Shown here in pieces: positions 4,215-13,316 of a DNA stretch of 64,000 nucleotides. Positions within the stretch are counted from its first letter, which is position 1. The number at the start of each line of letters is the position of its first letter. Origin of the DNA: Synechococcus sp. PROS-7-1 (GTDB lineage Bacteria; Cyanobacteriota; Cyanobacteriia; PCC-6307; Cyanobiaceae); assembly GCF_014279795.1 (NCBI RefSeq), contig NZ_CP047945.1, forward strand, positions 330,572-394,571, given 5' to 3'. The notes under the pieces were generated by a model. That model saw nothing but the letters and a program-made list of their open reading frames with translations, did no database searches and was not told the DNA's origin. Made by a program: the position numbers and the translations under genes.

Positions 4215-5726
4215 ATGGGGCTAACTGCTCCGTCTTCTGTGACCGTCGCTCCCGCCGTTGACCGTTTCGAACGGTCGGAATGGGCTAGTGCCTTTCGCAA
4301 TGTGGAGCAGGAGCTCACCGATGTGCCTCTGACCCCGGTGCGCGGCGCCATCCCTGCCGACTTGTTGGGAACCTTGTACCGCAACGGTCCCGGTCGGCTC
4401 GAGCGCAACGGCCAACGGGTGCATCACCCTTTTGATGGCGACGGGATGATCACGGCCCTTCGCTTTGAAGAGGGCACGCTTGCCTTGCGCAATCGCTTTG
4501 TGCGAACGGCCGGTTGGCAGGAAGAGGAAGCTGCGGGAAAGGTGCTGTATCGCGGTGTATTCGGCAGTCAGAAGCCCGGTGGGCCCCTGGCGAATGCCTT
4601 TGATCTTCGCCTGAAAAACATTGCGAACACCGGGGTGGTGCAGCTGGGCGATCAGTTGTTGGCGCTCTGGGAGGCGGCGGAACCGCACGCGCTTGATCCC
4701 CGCACCCTTGAAACCCATGGCATCAGCCTTCTCGGAGGAGTGCTCAAGAAAGGTGAGGCCTTCAGTGCGCACCCCCGCTTCGATCCCGGCCATCACGACC
4801 GTCCGCGCATGGTGACCTTCGGGGTCAAAACCGGACCACGCAGCACCATCCGCTTAATGGAGTTCGCCACCGAAACCGATGCTGCTGCGGGCATCACAGC
4901 TGGCGACCTTCTCTGTGAACGCAAAGACAGTTTCAACGGCTTTGCCTTTCTCCACGATTTTGCGATCACACCCAACTGGGCAGTGTTTCTTCAGAACGCC
5001 ATCGCCTTCAATCCCCTGCCATTCGTACTCGGCCAGAAGGGGGCTGCTCAGTGTCTGCAGTCGAAGCCGGATGGTCAGGCCAAGTTCTGGTTGATTCCGC
5101 GAGAAAGCGGTGCCTTTGCAGGGCAGCCGCCTCGCATTGTGGATGCCCCGGACGGTTTTGTGTTCCATCACCTCAACGCTTGGGAAGACGACGGCGATGT
5201 GGTGGTGGAAAGCATCTATTACAGCGACTTCCCCTCCGTCGGCCCAGAGATGGACTTCACTGCAGTGGATTTCGATCTGATTCCAGAAGGCCTGCTGGAG
5301 CAATGCCGTATCAACTTGGAACGTGGGGAGGTGAAGACCACGCGCCTGAGCGAACGCTGCTGCGAATTCGCCATGGTGAATCCTGATAAGGAAGGTCTCC
5401 CTTGCCGCTATGCCTGGATGGCCGCCGCCGCCCGGGAGCAGGGCAATGATCCCCTGCAGGTGATCAAGAAGCTGGACCTCAGTAACGGGGAACGCCGGAT
5501 CTGGAGTGCCGCACCCCATGGTTTCGTCAGCGAACCGCTGATGGTTCCCAGGCCCGGTGCCACCGCTGAGGACGATGGCTGGATCCTGGAACTGGTCTGG
5601 AATGGGGCCCGGGAAGGATCCGACTTGGTGATTCTTGATGCGGCCGATCTCAAGGAGGTTGCTGTGATTGAGCTGCCTCTGGCGATTCCCCATGGGCTGC
5701 ACGGCAGCTGGGTTGACGCCCGATGA
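4215..5726 (+). CDS. Carotenoid (apocarotenoid) cleavage oxygenase
   Basis: A 503-residue member of the carotenoid oxygenase/RPE65/lignostilbene dioxygenase family, which uses non-haem Fe(II) held by four histidines to cleave carotenoids or apocarotenals. Candidate iron ligands are in A-H-P-R-F-D, H-D-F-A-I-T, H-H-L-N-A-W and H-G-L-H-G-S-W close to the C-terminus. The early Y-R-N-G-P-G and H-P-F-D-G-D-G-M motifs are typical. No signal peptide. ATG 4215 is the natural start. Substrate, for example retinal formation from apocarotenal, cannot be decided from sequence. Confidence 0.92.
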   Translation: MGLTAPSSVTVAPAVDRFERSEWASAFRNVEQELTDVPLTPVRGAIPADLLGTLYRNGPGRLERNGQRVHHPFDGDGMITALRFEEGTLALRNRFVRTAGWQEEEAAGKVLYRGVFGSQKPGGPLANAFDLRLKNIANTGVVQLGDQLLALWEAAEPHALDPRTLETHGISLLGGVLKKGEAFSAHPRFDPGHHDRPRMVTFGVKTGPRSTIRLMEFATETDAAAGITAGDLLCERKDSFNGFAFLHDFAITPNWAVFLQNAIAFNPLPFVLGQKGAAQCLQSKPDGQAKFWLIPRESGAFAGQPPRIVDAPDGFVFHHLNAWEDDGDVVVESIYYSDFPSVGPEMDFTAVDFDLIPEGLLEQCRINLERGEVKTTRLSERCCEFAMVNPDKEGLPCRYAWMAAAAREQGNDPLQVIKKLDLSNGERRIWSAAPHGFVSEPLMVPRPGATAEDDGWILELVWNGAREGSDLVILDAADLKEVAVIELPLAIPHGLHGSWVDAR

Positions 5727-5832
5727 TCGGATGCACTCTGTGATAACTGCCGGCTGACGCGTCACCGTTCAGTCACCCGTCCATCGCCGGTGGGATTTAG
5801 ACAGCGTCCAGGTTGTGTCTTCGCCCTCCGCC

Positions 5833-6537
5833 ATGCGCATTGGGACATCTGCTGTTCGTCTCCTCGCCGTTCCGATGGCAGTCCTGGGGTTTCCCGCAGG
5901 ATTACTGCCGGCTCGGGCGCAGGTTCAGGGACCTCGCTGCAACGGCACCGTGCTGCAGCTCACTGTGCAGGAGCGAGGCGACACGCGCACCGACCGTTTT
6001 CGTTTCACGCTGCGTCTGGAGGCTGAAGCGTCCAACAGCGCTGCTGCCCTGGAGCAGCTCAATGGTCGTCTCGCGCGTGTGCGCACGGAGCTCACCCCAT
6101 TGGTGCAAGGCGATCTGGAAGTGCCGGCGCCGAGCACATTCCCCATCAGTCGATCGCAGTCTCCTGATCGCTACCGGGCGTCGACAACCATCCGAGGCTC
6201 GGTCAGTCGCAGCAATTACGACACGCTGATTCAGCGGGCCGGCCGGCTGCCCGGGGTTCGCCTGCAGGGCATGACCTCCCTGGCTTCAGTGCAGGGTCAG
6301 ACAGAGCTGGAGGAGCGCTTGCTGAAGCGGTCCTTGGAGCGTGGTCAGTCGCAGGCGGCGAGCACGGCTTCAGCCCTGGGGCTGTCCAAGGTGAAGCTGT
6401 TGCGCATTGATCAGCGCAGCCAGCCCGCGACCCGTGGGCTGGCGATGGCGGCAACGGCCGCTCCCCGCTTTAGGCCCGGGGAGGCTCCGCTCCCCACCGG
6501 GAGTCTGAGCCTCACCCTGGACTACTGCCTGTCTTAA
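5833..6537 (+). CDS. SIMPL-domain (DUF541) periplasmic protein
   Basis: A secreted-type protein of about 234 residues. ATG 5833 gives a clear signal peptide ending in an A-R-A-type cleavage site; GTG 5815 would add six residues. The body resembles SIMPL/DUF541 proteins: a duplicated beta-alpha pattern with repeated long helices (A-A-A-L-E-Q-L-N-G-R-L-x-x-V-R) and a late G-S-L-S-L-T-L-D-Y strand. Function of the family is poorly defined; envelope or oxidative-stress links are reported for some members. Confidence 0.65.
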   Translation: MRIGTSAVRLLAVPMAVLGFPAGLLPARAQVQGPRCNGTVLQLTVQERGDTRTDRFRFTLRLEAEASNSAAALEQLNGRLARVRTELTPLVQGDLEVPAPSTFPISRSQSPDRYRASTTIRGSVSRSNYDTLIQRAGRLPGVRLQGMTSLASVQGQTELEERLLKRSLERGQSQAASTASALGLSKVKLLRIDQRSQPATRGLAMAATAAPRFRPGEAPLPTGSLSLTLDYCLS

Positions 6538-6594: not shown

Positions 6595-7827
6595 GTGCGT
6601 GATCGCCTGCTCTGGCTGTTCAGTCTTCTCTTTGTTCTCTGGCTGGTCTGGGTGGAGACCGGCTTTCAGTACTACGAACGGGCGCTCGGTTCGGAGCTGC
6701 TTGTCCGGCCAGCGGGTCTGGCGCTGATTGCAGGGAGCTTTCTGGTGCCCTACGGGCTTGTGCAGGTTCCCGTGGGGCGACTGATCGATCGCGGGCGGGT
6801 TGAGCTCTGGCTGCTTCTTGCTGCGTTGGTCGCTGCGAGCTGCAGCGTGGTGTTTGCTCGCAGTGAAACCCTGATGGGGTTGTTGCTCTCCCGCATCGGC
6901 ACTGGCATGGCCTGTGCCGTTGCATTCCCGGCATCGGCGGTCCTGGCGCGACGCACCCTGCCGACCCATCGCTTTGCGTTGGCGATGGGATGTACCGATG
7001 CTCTGGTGGGTTTGGGGGCTGCGCTCGCTGCGGTGGTTCCCCTGCTTCTGGGTCGCTCAGCCTGGCGGGGTTTGGTGCTGCTGCAGGGCCTTTCGCTGCT
7101 GCTGGTGGTGGCCTTGCCCGTGTTGCTCTTGAGCGTGTCGAGGCATGCGCGGGTCAGGGCGGATCGGCTGCCGATCGTCGCTTCTCCGGTGGACGTGCCG
7201 CGTTGGAGCCGGGGGGGAGTGCTGCGACTGATTCAGTGCTGCCTGCTGTATGCCTGGGGGCTGGGATTTGTGTTCGGGATGGCCCAGTACGGCCTTCTCT
7301 CCACCCTGAAGGGATGGCCCAGCCCCTTGATGGAAGGACTCACCCTCACCATGTCGATCGGTTTGATGGTGGGCATGGTCGGCAGTGGGGCGCTTGGTGG
7401 TCGGCCCCAGCGACGGGGCCGTGTGCTGCTGCTGGGGACCCTCATCACGCTGTTGTCCCTGCTTCTCCTGCTGACATCCTGGATTCCCCAACCTCTGCTG
7501 CAATTGCCTGCGCTCACATTCGGCATCGGCATGGGTTCGGCAGTCTTGGCCTTTCCGATTGCGGAGGCCTCGGCCCCTCTCGGGCAGACGGCGATGACCG
7601 TTTCGATCGTCAATACCTGCGGAACCCTGATGGGCGGAGTGATGAGCGTGGTGTCAGGCTTGATCCTGCAGGCTTCGCCAAGCGGTGATCTGTCGCTGGT
7701 GCTGGTGATCTACGGCGCGTTAGCCCTGTTCGGGGTGGTGATGGCGGGGTGGATCAGCTTGAACCCGGAGCTTGTTGACGCTGCTGCCATTCCTTCCAGG
7801 CCAGACGCGGTGCAGTCCAGAGAGTGA
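6595..7827 (+). CDS. MFS transporter
   Basis: A 410-residue integral membrane protein with about 12 hydrophobic segments and an MFS-like G-R-L-I-D-R-G-R-V loop between the second and third helices. GTG 6595 is the start. Its last 74 bp overlap the 3' end of the convergent BCCT transporter gene. Substrate unknown; possible exporter of small molecules, by family analogy only. Confidence 0.8.
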   Translation: MRDRLLWLFSLLFVLWLVWVETGFQYYERALGSELLVRPAGLALIAGSFLVPYGLVQVPVGRLIDRGRVELWLLLAALVAASCSVVFARSETLMGLLLSRIGTGMACAVAFPASAVLARRTLPTHRFALAMGCTDALVGLGAALAAVVPLLLGRSAWRGLVLLQGLSLLLVVALPVLLLSVSRHARVRADRLPIVASPVDVPRWSRGGVLRLIQCCLLYAWGLGFVFGMAQYGLLSTLKGWPSPLMEGLTLTMSIGLMVGMVGSGALGGRPQRRGRVLLLGTLITLLSLLLLLTSWIPQPLLQLPALTFGIGMGSAVLAFPIAEASAPLGQTAMTVSIVNTCGTLMGGVMSVVSGLILQASPSGDLSLVLVIYGALALFGVVMAGWISLNPELVDAAAIPSRPDAVQSRE

Positions 7828-9334
7828 TCAACACCAAAGGCGTGACCGGAACGGCTGAAATCACAATGAAGGCCTGCAGAGCATTAATCGACGTGCTGTC
7901 TCCCAGGCTGGTGCCGATGCGCAGCAGTACCAGGGTGAGGCTGCCAATCATCAGAGCCCAGAACAGGCGCAGAAGTGCGGGTGGCTTTCGCTGGGCACTC
8001 ACCACCATGGCGGCGGCGTAGCTCATCGAGTCGGCGCTGGTGGCCATGAACAGCACCACCAGAATCAAGCCAACAGGAATCAGCAGCCAGGGGAGTGGGA
8101 GCTGGCCAAGGATGGCGAGCAGAGCGCCCGCTTCGCCACTGGCAGCAAGAGGTCCACTGATGGCTCCTGGATTGCTCAGCTCCAGTTGCATGCCCGTGCC
8201 CCCCAGCAGGGTGAACCAAAGATTGGTCACGATTGGGCAGAGGATTGCCACGGCCAGCACCAGTTCGCGCAGGGTTCGGCCCCGGCTAACCCCTGCGGTG
8301 AACAGCCCCATCAAGGGGGCGTATCCCAGAAACCAGCCCCAGTAGAACACCGTCCAGGCATTGACCCAGTTGTCGGGTCCACGGTTGGGAGCCAGAGCCA
8401 TCGGCACCAAGTTGCTCACGTAGAGCGTGAAGGAACTGGCGAAGTGTTGAATCAGCCAAAGCCTTGGCCCCAGCAGAAGCAAGGCCGCGGCGAGGCCGAG
8501 CGTGAGCCAAACGTTCACTTCCGACAGCCACTTGATGCCCCGTTGAATCCCACTCACCGTGGAGGTGGCGAACACGGCGGTGAGCAGGACCACCACCAGC
8601 GACTGCAGGCCCGCGCTATCGCTGAGGCCTGGGAGCATGCCCGCGGCATTGCTGAGCTGCAGTGATAAGAAGCCGAGCGGCCCCACCGTGCCGGCAATGG
8701 CTGCCACCACAGACAGTCCGTCGGCGAGGTCTCCAAGCGGACCTTCGACCCATCGATGGGGAAGCAGTCCCACCAGAAGGGTGCGAGGCCGCAGCGGTTC
8801 ACCGCGTTGTTCCTGGATTGAGAGGGTGATCGTGACCGTGGTGGCCACCAGTGCCCATGCCAGAAATCCCCAGTGCAGGAAGCTCACGGCTAAAGAGGGA
8901 TCGACGGCTGCGGCTGTGGAGCCTTCAACGTTGCTGAAGTAAGGCGCCGGAGTGCGGAAGTGGAACAGCGGTTCAGCCGCTGACCAGAACACCCCGCCAC
9001 CGGCCAGCAGCGTGCAGATCAGCACGGCGCACCAGTCAAAGAATTTCAGGCTTGGTTTGGCGTCGACGCCTCCCAAACGCAGGCGGCCCACTGGACTGAT
9101 CGCCATCACCACGGCGATCACGAACAGCAACAGCACCATCCACTGCCACAAGCCGCCCAGGGATCCACTGACAATGGCCTTACCGGAGCTGGTGAATTGC
9201 TGGGCCAGTGCGAGGTCAACGGCCGCCAGCACCAGAAAGGCCAGCAGCGGGCCAGCACCGATCCAGAGGGGCGGGCGACGCCACCAGGGCCCTGCTGAAA
9301 CAGGTCCGTCGCCGAGGTTGGTTTGATCGCTCAC
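7754..9334 (-). CDS. BCCT-family betaine-type transporter
   Basis: A 526-residue secondary transporter with about 12 membrane helices of the betaine/choline/carnitine family. Family hallmarks include A-G-G-G-V-F-W-S-A-A-E-P-L near 111-123 and W-T-V-F-Y-W-G-W-F near 327-335. Against the BetP sequence I recall, the aromatic prism residues Trp189 and Trp194 are kept (W155, W160), but Tyr197 becomes V163 and Trp374 becomes F335. It is the last gene of the SABATH-dehydrogenase-flavoenzyme operon, 35 bp after the flavoenzyme. Uptake or recapture of a betaine-like solute is inferred; the changed prism hints at a substrate other than glycine betaine. Confidence 0.9.
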   Translation of the reverse strand: MSDQTNLGDGPVSAGPWWRRPPLWIGAGPLLAFLVLAAVDLALAQQFTSSGKAIVSGSLGGLWQWMVLLLFVIAVVMAISPVGRLRLGGVDAKPSLKFFDWCAVLICTLLAGGGVFWSAAEPLFHFRTPAPYFSNVEGSTAAAVDPSLAVSFLHWGFLAWALVATTVTITLSIQEQRGEPLRPRTLLVGLLPHRWVEGPLGDLADGLSVVAAIAGTVGPLGFLSLQLSNAAGMLPGLSDSAGLQSLVVVLLTAVFATSTVSGIQRGIKWLSEVNVWLTLGLAAALLLLGPRLWLIQHFASSFTLYVSNLVPMALAPNRGPDNWVNAWTVFYWGWFLGYAPLMGLFTAGVSRGRTLRELVLAVAILCPIVTNLWFTLLGGTGMQLELSNPGAISGPLAASGEAGALLAILGQLPLPWLLIPVGLILVVLFMATSADSMSYAAAMVVSAQRKPPALLRLFWALMIGSLTLVLLRIGTSLGDSTSINALQAFIVISAVPVTPLVLITLWTAPRLAWKEWQQRQQAPGSS

Positions 9335-9369
9335 GAAAACGCTTTAACGAAGAATTGACAGGTCGCGCT

Positions 9370-10557
9370 TCAGGCGCGCACGGCCTCGCGCTGGTGACTC
9401 CAGCAGGAGAGATCCACGGCCGGTGATTCTCCACAGGCCAATCGGGCGAGGGAATCGCCGACGAGCGGAGCAAATTTGAACGCCTGGCCTGAGCCCCCGG
9501 CAAACAGGCTGAGCTTTGGCGTGAGGCGATCAAGAACGAAGTTCACATCGCTCGTCATGGAGTACGGGCTCATCACCGTCTCCACCCGTTGCTGCACTCC
9601 GTCGAGTTCGTTGAACAGGAAGGTGTCGAGAAGTTCGACCAGTCGAGCCGGGGCTTCACTGCACATGGCATTCGGTTCAGCAACCCGCAGCTCCTTGGGA
9701 GCCCAGTCGATACCGGCCTTGATGCGCGGCCGTCCTTCCGCCGTGTGGCTGAGTACAGGGAATCCGTAGTACAGGCCGCCATCGTCGCCGCGTTCCCGTT
9801 GGAAGCAGAACCATTGCGGATAGCGATCCGCCAGGGAGGGGGCAACGGTGTAATGCGCCCACAACATGGGCCAGATCTCGAGCTTTGGAGACAGACCCAG
9901 AGGGGCCAGCAACAGATCGCTCCAGATGCCGCAAGCCACCACCACCTGATCGGCGGCGATGTGATGACCGTCGACCAATGTGACGCCGCCGCCGTCGGCA
10001 TCAACACCCTTCACTGGAGTGTCTTCCAGAAGGCGATGACCCGCCTGTTCCGCTGTGCGCCGCCAGTGGGCGATCACCTTGTCGCTGCGTACCGCTCCGG
10101 CGGTGGGTTCGAATAAACCTGTGAAGTCGGGCTTGGGTTTGAGCGGAAAGCGTTCGGCGATCTCCTTTGCGCTCAGAGCCTCGTAAGGAATGTTCTGTTC
10201 ATCCATCACCCGCCGGGCGCCAGGGATGGACCCTTCGATGGTTTCTTCGTCCCAGCTTTCGCCGTAGAACAGCAATCCGTGGGTTTCCCGCAGGGGCTCT
10301 CCGGCGTGCTTCTCTTCCTCTCGCCAGAGCCGATTGGCTTCCTGGGCCAGGCGGCAGAGCACCGGGTCGGAATACATTTCCCGGAACATGCGGGTTTCGC
10401 CGAAGCTGCTGGCCCGTGCATGGGCCAGGGTCTTCGCTTCCAGTAGCACCACATCACGCACTCCTCGCCGAGCCAGAGCGGCTGCACAGCTCAGACCGGC
10501 CATACCGCCACCGACGATCACGACCTCGGCTTGGACAGGCATTGGTGGTTGGCTCAT
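9370..10557 (-). CDS. Monomeric sarcosine oxidase/NikD-family flavoprotein amino-acid oxidase
   Basis: A 395-residue FAD amine oxidase. G-G-G-M-A-G at 16-21 binds FAD; S-S-F-G-E-T-R near 50-56, G-L-Y-Y-G-F-P near 261-267 and F-K-F at 360-362 match the MSOX/N-methyltryptophan-oxidase family. The cysteine that normally carries covalent FAD aligns with Ser330 in M-S-P-Y-S-M-T, so FAD is probably non-covalent. The MSOX active-site His269 aligns with Asp284, and Glu100 and Lys361 sit where NikD has Glu101 and Lys358, as I recall them. NikD oxidises piperideine-2-carboxylate to picolinate. The start overlaps the dehydrogenase stop (ATGA), indicating translational coupling. Plain sarcosine oxidase remains possible. 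Confidence 0.85.
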   Translation of the reverse strand: MSQPPMPVQAEVVIVGGGMAGLSCAAALARRGVRDVVLLEAKTLAHARASSFGETRMFREMYSDPVLCRLAQEANRLWREEEKHAGEPLRETHGLLFYGESWDEETIEGSIPGARRVMDEQNIPYEALSAKEIAERFPLKPKPDFTGLFEPTAGAVRSDKVIAHWRRTAEQAGHRLLEDTPVKGVDADGGGVTLVDGHHIAADQVVVACGIWSDLLLAPLGLSPKLEIWPMLWAHYTVAPSLADRYPQWFCFQRERGDDGGLYYGFPVLSHTAEGRPRIKAGIDWAPKELRVAEPNAMCSEAPARLVELLDTFLFNELDGVQQRVETVMSPYSMTSDVNFVLDRLTPKLSLFAGGSGQAFKFAPLVGDSLARLACGESPAVDLSCWSHQREAVRA

Positions 10558-11609
10558 GCCGCGTCTCCGAAACTCAGGCCGATCGGATCATGTTCCGGTT
10601 CTGCAGCCACTTCCACCAGGGCAGCCCCCACCGACAAGCCCTGATCACGCTGATTGAGATAGTTGGCGGCGCGTTGGCGCACTTCCTGGCGAACGAAGGC
10701 ATAGACATCGTTCGCACCTGCTCCTTCCCAGGCGTCCGGTGAAAAGCGTTCGATCGAATCGGCAATCACGGCGCCGGCATTGACCAGCGGGTCGGGAAGC
10801 ACCCGAATGCTGCGACGGCGCAGCTCGTCCGCGATCTGGGGTTGCTGGAAGGGGGCATTCGCTGCCGGTACCACCGCAGCAACCTTCAGGGCAGAGGCCA
10901 TGTCTGCGTTAATCAGCCCGGAGATGGAGCATGGGATCAGCAAATCCACCTTGATCTCCCACCACGGGCAGTTGCTTGGCAGGGGTGTGGCTCCAGGGAA
11001 ACTCGCGCGCGATCGGTCGAGATCGGCGGTGAACACGGTCCAACCGTGTTGGACCAGCACGCGGGCGACTGTGCCCCCCACGGCGCCGCAGCCATGGACA
11101 AGAGCGCGGCCAGGGGTGGCCTGACTGAGCTCAGCGTCCAACACGGCTTCAACGGCGCCCAAGGTTCCGTGGGCTGTGGCGGCACTGGCGTCCACCGGAC
11201 TTCCCACAGCAGCCAGCACATGGGGGGTGAGCGCCGTCAGGCGCTCCATGTCTTCCAGGCTGGTGTTCAGATCACAGCCAGTGATCATGGCGCCATCGAG
11301 AGATTCGAGTAGGCCGGCGGTGACGTGGATCAGTTCGTCCTTGACAGCCGCCGGTTCAGCGGCGCGCGCCACGATCTTGCCTCCGGCGAACCCCGTTCCG
11401 TAGAGGTCATGCTTGTGCGTCATCAGTCCAGCCAGACGTTCTCCGTCGGCGATGCACGCCTCGTCGCTTGGATAGTTGAGTAAACGCAGTCCGCCATTGG
11501 CGGGGCGAGCGGCGTCGGTGTTCTCAGCGACAACAAACACGGACAGATGATCGGACACGTGCTCAGCAAGCACCGACACGGTCGGCTTGGTTCGGGTGGT
11601 GGTTGTCAT
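10554..11609 (-). CDS. Glu/Leu/Phe/Val-type amino-acid dehydrogenase
   Basis: A 351-residue NAD(P)-dependent dehydrogenase of the leucine-dehydrogenase type. Lys66 (M-T-H-K), Lys78 (A-G-G-K) and Asp113 (G-C-D-L) align with leucine dehydrogenase Lys68, Lys80 and Asp115. The Rossmann motif G-C-G-A-V-G is at 173-178 with Asp196/Asp198 at the end of the second strand, which favours NAD. It sits between the SABATH gene (1-nt TGATG overlap) and the flavoenzyme (4-nt ATGA overlap). Reversible oxidative deamination of an amino acid is inferred; lysine is the candidate if the homarine idea is right. Confidence 0.85.
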   Translation of the reverse strand: MTTTTRTKPTVSVLAEHVSDHLSVFVVAENTDAARPANGGLRLLNYPSDEACIADGERLAGLMTHKHDLYGTGFAGGKIVARAAEPAAVKDELIHVTAGLLESLDGAMITGCDLNTSLEDMERLTALTPHVLAAVGSPVDASAATAHGTLGAVEAVLDAELSQATPGRALVHGCGAVGGTVARVLVQHGWTVFTADLDRSRASFPGATPLPSNCPWWEIKVDLLIPCSISGLINADMASALKVAAVVPAANAPFQQPQIADELRRRSIRVLPDPLVNAGAVIADSIERFSPDAWEGAGANDVYAFVRQEVRQRAANYLNQRDQGLSVGAALVEVAAEPEHDPIGLSFGDAA

Positions 11610-12646
11610 CAGGCCACTTTCTCCATCATCTGGTGGTGTTCGACGTAATCAAGGCTCCACTCGCTCGGCGCATCGGCGATGCGTTGCTGGAGGCGCTCAT
11701 AGACCAGGTCAGCAGCTTTGTCGCCCGCAGCACTGGCGAAGCTGTGTCGACTCCAGCTGCGGATCGTGGCCATCAGGCCCGCCGCGAAGGTGGCTGTGTC
11801 GCCATCCTCGTTCCAGCGCCTGCGGTAAGGGCACTTCACGTACACCGTGCGTTCATCCACCAGACGCAGACCGTTGCTGTACGGCGCTGATGATTCATCT
11901 TTCAGCGGCGCCATGAATTCGTCAGGAGATTTGTAGAAGTTGAGCACCGTGCCATTGCGGTACTGCTCTTCACTGATCACTCCTTCGTCGGCCAATCCAC
12001 GCCAAATCTGATGCAATTGGTCGTGCACATTGCGTGTCTCGCCGCCGTTGTGTCCGAGATAGCGGCCTTCGTTGTCCCGTGACAGGTTCACGGTCAACAG
12101 ACGACCACCCACGATCAGCTCACGGCTGCGCAGTTCGAGCACGTAGGTCCAGTCCTTAAGAGCCTGGGCGGTGAAGCGCTGCAGAGCATCGGCGTCGCCC
12201 GAGGCCAGCACATGCGTATGGGTATTGAGGGGGCCGGGCGACTGGCTCAGCCAATGCATGGCTGTCGCAGAAAAGCCGAAGCTGATGGTGTTGGGGCCAA
12301 CAGAGGGCTCGTAAAAACTGCGGGCACTCACCAGAACGGTGGGCTTGGGCTCCCTGGGAATCTGCAGAGCCAGGTTTTCGGCCAGGGCCACGTTGTCGTT
12401 GCTTGGCAGGTCGTTGCCGATCAGCGTGAGGTGAGCCTGCGGTTGATTGCCGTGCAGGCGATCGAGGATCTGGTTCCAGAGCCCTACGGCGGTACCTCCA
12501 TCGGCTGCTCCGTAATCGATCAGCACGTGGCTGTCAGATAAAGGAAGTTGATCTACACAAGTCAGGGCCCAGTCCGAGGCGGCTTCGATGCAGAGGAGAG
12601 CGCCTTCGGTCTGCGCGCTGTAACCCGTGGTCATGGCAATGGCCAT
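11609..12646 (-). CDS. SABATH-family S-adenosylmethionine methyltransferase
   Basis: A 345-residue methyltransferase of the SABATH (Methyltransf_7) family, best known from plant carboxyl- and N-methyltransferases for salicylate, jasmonate, xanthines and nicotinate. Signs are the N-terminal Y-S-A-Q (Gln12), the SAM site I-D-Y-G-A-A-D-G-G at 43-51, F-S-A-T-A-M-H-W-L-S-Q-S-P around Trp132, and G-G-R-L-L-T-V near 187-193. Gln12 and Trp132 correspond to the pair that holds the substrate carboxylate in salicylate methyltransferase. First gene of a coupled operon behind a CRP-type palindrome. ATG at residue 5 is an alternative start. The substrate is not known; picolinate is proposed. Confidence 0.87.
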   Translation of the reverse strand: MAIAMTTGYSAQTEGALLCIEAASDWALTCVDQLPLSDSHVLIDYGAADGGTAVGLWNQILDRLHGNQPQAHLTLIGNDLPSNDNVALAENLALQIPREPKPTVLVSARSFYEPSVGPNTISFGFSATAMHWLSQSPGPLNTHTHVLASGDADALQRFTAQALKDWTYVLELRSRELIVGGRLLTVNLSRDNEGRYLGHNGGETRNVHDQLHQIWRGLADEGVISEEQYRNGTVLNFYKSPDEFMAPLKDESSAPYSNGLRLVDERTVYVKCPYRRRWNEDGDTATFAAGLMATIRSWSRHSFASAAGDKAADLVYERLQQRIADAPSEWSLDYVEHHQMMEKVA

Positions 12647-12722: not shown

Positions 12723-13316
12723 TCAGGCCTTGAAGAGGAGTTGCCGGAGCTGGGGTTCCAGCAGGGCGAAGGCCCGGCCCCGGTGGCCTTGCGCTTTCTT
12801 CTCGGGTGTGGACATTTCGGCGAAGGTGCGTGCGGTGTCATCCACCTCGAAGATCGGGTCATACCCGAAGCCCCCCTCGCCTCTGGGGCTTCGGGTGATC
12901 TGTCCTTCGCAGCGTCCCTGCACCTCCAGCAGCACGCCATCGCCAGGTGCCGCCAGACATAAGGCGGCACAAAAATGCGCGCTTCGGTTGTCCTGATCTT
13001 TTAGAGCCTCGAGCAGTCGGCTGATGCGTTCCGGGTCGGTTGGGGCATAGCGGGCGGAATGCACCCCAGGGGCTCCGTTGAGAGCGTCAACGCTCAAGCC
13101 AGAGTCGTCCGCGAGGGCCCAGGACTCGGTGGCGTTGGCGACGGCTAAGGCTTTCAAGCGGGCATTGGCCGCGAATGTCTGCCCCGTTTCCTCCACCTCC
13201 AGCCCCTCCGGTTGGGCGGTGATTCGAAGCGGAAGACTGCTCAGAAGGTGTTCGAACTCTCGGATCTTGCCGCGATTGCCACTGGCGATCACCAACGTTC
13301 GCGGGGACGGACTCAT
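12723..13316 (-). CDS. rdgB: XTP/dITP diphosphatase (RdgB/HAM1)
   Basis: A 197-residue house-cleaning pyrophosphatase that removes non-canonical purine nucleotides. Starting at ATG 13316 it opens T-L-V-I-A-S-G-N-R-G-K, with A-L-A-D-D-S-G-L-S-V-D, G-A-P-G-V-H-S-A-R and G-F-G-Y-D-P-I-F, the standard Ham1 motifs. The longer upstream reading frame is only overlap with the mutase. Its ATG overlaps the stop of the upstream phosphohexomutase (ATGA). Confidence 0.95.
   Translation of the reverse strand: MSPSPRTLVIASGNRGKIREFEHLLSSLPLRITAQPEGLEVEETGQTFAANARLKALAVANATESWALADDSGLSVDALNGAPGVHSARYAPTDPERISRLLEALKDQDNRSAHFCAALCLAAPGDGVLLEVQGRCEGQITRSPRGEGGFGYDPIFEVDDTARTFAEMSTPEKKAQGHRGRAFALLEPQLRQLLFKA

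Follow-up and report, generated by a model that had tools for sequence, protein, structure and literature searches.

What do three enzymes and a transporter, encoded end to end in the genome of the cyanobacterium Synechococcus sp. PROS-7-1, make and carry? Their genes stand in the window, i.e., the whole stretch of 64,000 nucleotides that was analysed (contig NZ_CP047945.1, positions 330,572 to 394,571), and encode a methyltransferase (MT), an amino-acid dehydrogenase (DH), a flavoenzyme oxidase (OX) and a transporter of the BCCT family. We propose, with a probability of about 0.7, that this operon is a unit for the biosynthesis of the ocean osmolyte homarine (N-methylpicolinate) from lysine and for its transport. 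Marine Synechococcus had been named as homarine producers in the first-pass annotation of this DNA, and Heal et al. report homarine in both Synechococcus strains tested, WH8102 and WH7803 (PMC8269262). Two field papers from 2021 describe the pathway or the genes by which homarine is made as unknown (PMC8269262, PMC8269247), and in the second of these Boysen et al. remark on the missing genetic information for homarine. Described homarine biosynthetic genes were absent from the matches listed among openly licensed PubMed Central papers, in agreement with the annotation's statement that no biosynthetic operon had been described.

A four-gene operon and its proposed pathway

The four genes are arranged as follows:

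11609..12646, minus strand: MT, SABATH-family S-adenosylmethionine (SAM)-dependent methyltransferase, 345 aa; PF03492 1.4e-21; proposed picolinate N-methyltransferase (homarine synthase)
10554..11609, minus strand: DH, ELFV (leucine-dehydrogenase-like) amino-acid dehydrogenase, 351 aa; PF00208 5e-16, PF02812 2.3e-6; proposed L-lysine 2-dehydrogenase
9370..10557, minus strand: OX, NikD/MSOX-family flavoenzyme, 395 aa; PF01266 5.3e-48; proposed piperideine-2-carboxylate aromatase giving picolinate
7754..9334, minus strand: BCCT secondary transporter, 526 aa, GTG start; PF02028 1e-126; proposed homarine importer/re-uptake protein

All four are encoded on the minus strand according to the open reading frame (ORF) calls in the window. 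One nucleotide is common to the MT stop and the DH start, DH and OX overlap by 4 nt at stop and start, and 35 nt separate the OX stop from the start of BCCT. The coordinates and Pfam matches agree with the SABATH/dehydrogenase/NikD-like/BCCT layout first described for this DNA. The gene content, order, linkage, co-occurrence and conserved residues reported here are firmly established, and from them we infer all substrates, products and the transport specificity.

In the proposed pathway, DH would oxidatively deaminate L-lysine at the alpha-carbon to 2-keto-6-aminocaproate, which would close spontaneously to piperideine-2-carboxylate. OX, acting as NikD does, would carry out two ring oxidations to give picolinate; being irreversible, this aromatisation would draw along the deamination, which is unfavourable by itself. 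MT would then transfer the methyl group of SAM to the pyridine nitrogen, yielding the zwitterion homarine, which BCCT would import or recapture and the cell would keep as a compatible solute. Judged by known chemistry, DH, OX and MT together would thus lead from lysine to homarine without a missing step. The first part of this path is like the lysine-to-picolinate route proposed for nikkomycin and caerulomycin (NikC with NikD, CaeP1 with CaeP2; PMC11446937, PMC8149447), i.e., deamination of lysine at C2, closure to piperideine-2-carboxylate and ring oxidation by a flavoenzyme. It differs in that an ELFV dehydrogenase replaces the aminotransferase, OX is without the flavin-linking cysteine, and the proposed product is an N-methylated free solute that is not built into an antibiotic. 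The exchange of aminotransferase for dehydrogenase, the added SABATH N-methyltransferase and the linked transporter would be new relative to that route.

NikD is the top match of OX by phmmer, by profile (160.2 bits, with MSOX, monomeric sarcosine oxidase, at 135.2 and MTOX at 114.8) and by fold, sarcosine oxidases being close behind; the best four fold matches are all NikD, by a small margin over sarcosine oxidase. Among 43 OX homologues (30 from Synechococcus including the window, 12 from Prochlorococcus and one from Myxococcales), NikD residues Arg53, Glu101, Tyr258 and Lys358 are retained in every one. The position of NikD Asp276, at which monomeric sarcosine oxidase has His269, is likewise Asp in 43/43 (as placed by HMMER alignments; a MAFFT alignment misplaced it). 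Glu101 and Asp276 presumably have special roles in NikD. In MTOX, MSOX and NikD, an Arg-Lys pair is described as holding the carboxylate of the substrate (PMC6222107).

MT belongs to the SABATH family (PF03492 at 77.5 bits, cut-off 29.8), as do trigonelline synthase and other plant N-methyltransferases, and its model (predicted local distance difference test, pLDDT, 91.4) has the SABATH fold. It shares fold and family with solved caffeine-type enzymes, and its fold matches take in plant N- and O-methyltransferases, although its proposed substrate has the ring nitrogen next to the carboxylate, and it is closer in both sequence and fold to the mycobacterial fatty acid O-methyltransferase FAMT (5f2k, the best PDB match by either measure; fold 1.2e-28) than to any solved plant enzyme. 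The column of SAMT Gln25, which we take to be a carboxylate ligand, is Ala16 in 22/22 aligned MT homologues, while FAMT and SAMT carry Gln; this argues against SAMT-like methylation of a carboxyl group. His131-Trp132 is invariant in the same 22 sequences. In a tree, the cyanobacterial, Myxococcales and Electrothrix MTs form one group (45 rows, support 100/100), for which there was a long-branch warning.

The substrate of DH is less sharply marked. Its best profile matches are leucine (133 bits), tryptophan (123) and phenylalanine (119) dehydrogenases only, and at such scores DH represents a divergent subfamily; the tryptophan dehydrogenase ScyB model (NF035922) gave 96.4 bits, below its 600-bit equivalog cut-off. 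The NAD-binding GxGxxG motif is present as GCGAVG, and Lys66, Lys78 and Asp113, which we take to be catalytic, are invariant in 14/14 sequences. Of the residues assumed to line the leucine dehydrogenase pocket, a Leu is replaced by Asn38 in 43/44 sequences (the remaining one being X) and an Ala by Gly111 in 44/44, a Gly that tryptophan dehydrogenase shares. Such a polar pocket might, weakly, suit a polar side chain such as that of lysine. A two-residue gap prevented a confident placement of leucine dehydrogenase Val294, and no claim is drawn from DH Asp284.

Distribution and linkage of the genes

MT relatives were sought in species genomes, the best 80 of 174 confirmed loci were kept, and the four proteins were searched by tblastn against these loci and that of the window's own genome. 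Thirty Synechococcus loci (L002-L031) have the four-gene cassette, the contig ending within BCCT in L003 and within OX in L021. Among them is the locus of WH7803 (L002), where MT shares 97% identity with the window's MT. Twelve Prochlorococcus loci (L032-L042, L045) have MT, DH and OX with no BCCT in the fetched DNA, and L044 is a contig end carrying an MT fragment only.

We then examined 400 genomes of the family, drawn from a larger group. MT matched in 72 of these, or in 70 once G102 and G194 (E 2.9e-8 and 7.9e-11), whose matches are distant SABATH proteins, are set aside; OX matched in 70 (E up to 1e-60) and DH in 71 (E up to 1e-30). The survey of whether the three enzymes always co-occur, which the first-pass annotation had suggested, thus places MT and OX in an identical set of 70 genomes and DH in these plus one (G030). 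The trio is contiguous in 70/70 carriers, no gap exceeding 32 nt between MT and DH or 141 nt between DH and OX, which is more than chance; a hypergeometric figure for the overlap disregards common descent and is given no weight here. In this count, G239 and G242, whose MT is in two pieces, are each represented by one piece, and G327 by the OX fragment adjoining DH at a contig end in place of a longer OX match on another contig.

OX occurs in 6/59 genera of the sample. The trio is present in 30/31 genomes drawn from genus g1, the exception (G332) being 58% complete; DH is present in 28/34 genomes of genus g5 and in 17/19 of high quality; and in genus g10 the trio is present in G092 and absent from G009. 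In the Prochlorococcus genus searched, MT was found in 9/151 genomes (4/51 of high quality). Most genomes of two marine Synechococcus genera thus carry the cassette, and in Prochlorococcus its occurrence is patchy. In G242 (L084 4201-5231) and G239 (L085 2096-3129) MT is split over two frames in otherwise complete cassettes, and these are either natural mutants or sequencing errors. G225 has neither the cassette nor a gene for an MFS transporter at the site (L109 11779-15830). There, the gene next to rdgB resembles, by eye, window gene 5815-6537, and beyond it lie one more ORF and then the orthologue of window gene 4215-5726. No MT relative turned up in a scan of viral contigs.

Two side observations concern the same genomes. 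G102, G194, G222, G271 and G289 each encode a distantly related SABATH-like protein (23-29% identity), and three of these genomes also carry the operon MT. The lone DH homologue of G030 (L083 8549-9673) is 58-61% identical and lies beside a helicase-like gene in a genome with no MT, OX or BCCT; inspection of its neighbouring genes for a role was uninformative.

The transporter and the relatives of the operon

BCCT matches PF02028 over its full length (423.7 bits, profile positions 4-483 of 485), as do TmaT, DddT, BetP and CaiT, and the glycine-betaine BCCT model (NF047988) gave 297.8 bits, below its 650-bit equivalog cut-off. It is the sole BCCT of the window's genome, which is a single contig of 2,565,218 bases. 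The search for PF02028 covered every high-quality genome of the 400 that has the trio (50 genomes) and, for comparison, 16 of high quality that lack it, which were hand-picked, not random, and mostly of other genera: a BCCT is present in 47/50 and 0/16, respectively, and it adjoins OX in 46/50, with at most 112 nt between matched stretches. Transmembrane helix 8 (TM8) carries the motif (Y/F)WGWFL(G/S)Y in 30/30 aligned operon-linked BCCTs, so that Phe stands for the second Trp of the Trp pair found in betaine transporters; in the solved TmaT and DddT this stretch is WAWWIAW and WAWWIVY. The motif fits a substrate unlike glycine betaine, without identifying it. The unlinked BCCT of Prochlorococcus genome G270 is 62% identical to that of the window and has the same motif. 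As further observations, G025, one of the 47, has two additional BCCT fragments, and the operon-type BCCT of G273 (C1:2315349-2316812) has one in-frame TGA stop and may be broken.

These results bear on an alternative in which only the enzymes form a pathway and BCCT imports glycine betaine or dimethylsulfoniopropionate (DMSP), not homarine. Mao et al. annotate SYNW0229 of WH8102 as BetT, in a predicted operon SYNW0229-0233 whose other four genes they took as possible missing betaine-transporter subunits (PMC2874817), and a paper of 2026 takes Synechococcus BCCTs as a sign of DMSP import (PMC13310141). The closest solved relatives (TmaT, DddT and BetP) also favour such a role, as does the occurrence of proU betaine uptake genes in only 28/48 marine Synechococcus (PMC10087775). 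However, the adjacency of BCCT to OX, the lack of any BCCT in the chosen trio-lacking genomes and the departure of TM8 from the TmaT and DddT sequences argue against it, and the title of the same proU study assigns marine Synechococcus ProX a sole preference for glycine betaine (PMC10087775). We consider import of betaine or DMSP possible but unlikely, and homarine the better candidate substrate.

Outside the family, a Myxococcales metagenome-derived genome (L043) has all four genes in the same order, at 46% (MT), 49% (DH), 54% (OX) and 48% (BCCT) identity; among 240 genomes of its class there was no second carrier. The other 36 loci (L046-L081) have MT alone, at 34-39% identity, and at E up to 1e-10 no DH, OX or operon BCCT was found beside these MT relatives in the fetched DNA. 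The nearest of them, and the nearest MT outside the cassette among the best 80 of 174 loci, is that of Candidatus Electrothrix gigas (39% identity), which starts 23 nt past a second, divergent quinolinate synthase NadA (L046 8865-9962). The genome has two NadA, of which the MT-linked copy is the weaker (285.6 vs 378.1 bits); this copy keeps three Cys also found in the stronger one, which we assume to be cluster ligands, and the only NadB over the cut-off sits in the same region as MT. A NadA directly upstream of a related MT points to a pyridine-carboxylate as the MT substrate, there by a different route, and the pair is possibly another N-methyl-pyridine pathway. Among 59 genomes of the Electrothrix family, MT was found in Electrothrix itself only, so that the Electrothrix and Myxococcales cases each rest on one metagenome-derived genome. 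Scanned representatives of the neighbour families at the 36 loci, among them TRAP transporter parts, DUF3726, an aminotransferase (a cluster at five loci) and a 2-oxoglutarate oxygenase (L066), defined no substrate. Clusters represented by the TRAP parts DctQ and DctM lie near the MT relative in five gammaproteobacterial loci (L049, L061, L069, L070 and L077).

Upstream of the operon in the window lies one more gene on the same strand, absent from the earlier annotation:

12723..13316, minus strand: rdgB/HAM1-like nucleoside triphosphate (NTP) pyrophosphatase gene, from the ORF and comparison; upstream of MT

Its start and function are assigned by eye and are putative. A gap of 76 nt separates it from MT, and it is possibly the first gene of the transcript while standing outside the pathway. 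At the other end, an MFS transporter gene (6595-7827, plus strand) converges on the BCCT gene, and the two 3' ends overlap by 74 nt (7754-7827). The G+C content of the region is even throughout at 0.60-0.65, and so gives no compositional sign of recent arrival. Rfam at gathering thresholds gave no RNA element, and sigma-70-type scans found no promoter.

Weighing the homarine reading

Several points weigh against homarine biosynthesis by this operon. The flavin-linking Cys of NikD, MSOX and SOX, which in NikD we take to be Cys321, is Ser in 42/43 OX homologues, Asn in 1/43 and Cys in none, at a position that pairs with the sarcosine oxidase Cys in alignments; with this residue absent, OX would be expected to carry non-covalent flavin adenine dinucleotide (FAD). 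NikD Trp355 is Gln in 43/43. In the OX model (mean pLDDT 80.8), residues 101-109, which hold the Glu101 equivalent, are below 50, so the fold does not confirm the place of Glu101 and that match rests on alignment. DH occurs without MT or OX in G030. Shared descent explains part of the BCCT contrast, since the trio-lacking comparison genomes were mostly of other genera, and three of the four high-quality trio-bearing Prochlorococcus (G229, G348 and G364) have no BCCT, that of the fourth being unlinked. From the literature, homarine is nearly 100-fold lower in WH7803 than in WH8102 even though WH7803 carries the operon (PMC8269262, PMC10134881); a published correction divides homarine values by 25, so that they reach at most 18 mM and stand at about 0.2 mM for WH7803 (PMC10134881). 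For WH8102 the link is indirect, as SYNW0229-0233 fits the order BCCT-OX-DH-MT-rdgB by gene number only. Diatoms and Emiliania huxleyi contain homarine as well (PMC8269262), and our searches turned up no publication listing strains that lack the trio and make no homarine.

The enzymes could also form a single path that acts on another amino acid and ends in a different N-methylated ring or a methyl ester, homarine then coming from elsewhere. Sequence does not settle what DH and MT act on, and among solved proteins MT is closest to a fatty-acid O-methyltransferase; ornithine would, by the same chemistry, give a five-membered analogue, and candidate products would include ornithine-derived pyrrole-2-carboxylate and N-methyl-pipecolate. 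Against this, OX is closest to NikD, the Ala at the SAMT Gln25 position speaks against a methyl ester, and homarine is the N-methyl pyridine reported from two Synechococcus strains (PMC8269262). We judge such a path improbable.

Alternatively, OX could be a sarcosine or N-methyl-amino-acid oxidase in an operon that serves detoxification or the turnover of betaine, while MT and DH catalyse unrelated side reactions. OX does lie within the MSOX family, the margin of NikD is modest, and the NCBIfam models that score it best, N-methyl-L-tryptophan oxidase (190.9 bits against a cut-off of 257) and soxA_mon (151.7 against 479.65), both fall short of their thresholds. However, it has Asp as in NikD for MSOX His269 and a NikD-like Glu101, it lacks the covalent Cys of sarcosine oxidases, and it is strictly linked to a methyltransferase and an amino-acid dehydrogenase, all of which makes this account very improbable. 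Even less probable is a scheme in which MT methylates nicotinate to trigonelline, or picolinate derived from quinolinate to homarine, with DH and OX making pipecolate-type compounds: the Electrothrix pairing of a related MT with quinolinate synthase, a quinolinic acid origin of homarine quoted by Heal et al. from shrimp work (PMC8269262) and corrected subtropical homarine and trigonelline that are alike at 0.07 nM each (PMC8269262, PMC10134881) are in its favour, but methylating nicotinate needs neither OX nor DH, and MT at this strength never occurs without both in the 400 genomes.

The homarine reading proposed in the first-pass annotation therefore stands in part. The protein families, the NikD-type residues, the strict co-occurrence of the trio, the near-private BCCT, the Electrothrix NadA and the homarine of WH7803 and WH8102 agree with it, whereas the missing flavin Cys and the Gln at NikD Trp355 do not, and lysine as the DH substrate is only faintly suggested. 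In its complete form, which we think reasonably probable, a single operon would encode an alpha-lysine dehydrogenase now tied to a gene, a NikD-like aromatase that holds its flavin non-covalently, an N-methyltransferase for picolinate and a BCCT specific for homarine. The path would belong to the core of marine Synechococcus and occur patchily in Prochlorococcus, and in a cable bacterium a related N-methyltransferase would have been joined separately to a route through quinolinate.

Homarine has been put, as a corrected value from one North Pacific transect, at up to 0.25% of particulate carbon (PMC10134881). If the homarine reading is true, its production would become predictable from genomes and trackable in metatranscriptomes, and the marine Synechococcus BCCT, so far read as importing betaine or DMSP, would be reinterpreted as a transporter of homarine. 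Furthermore, a locus that is cleanly absent from some strains would become a target for knock-out.

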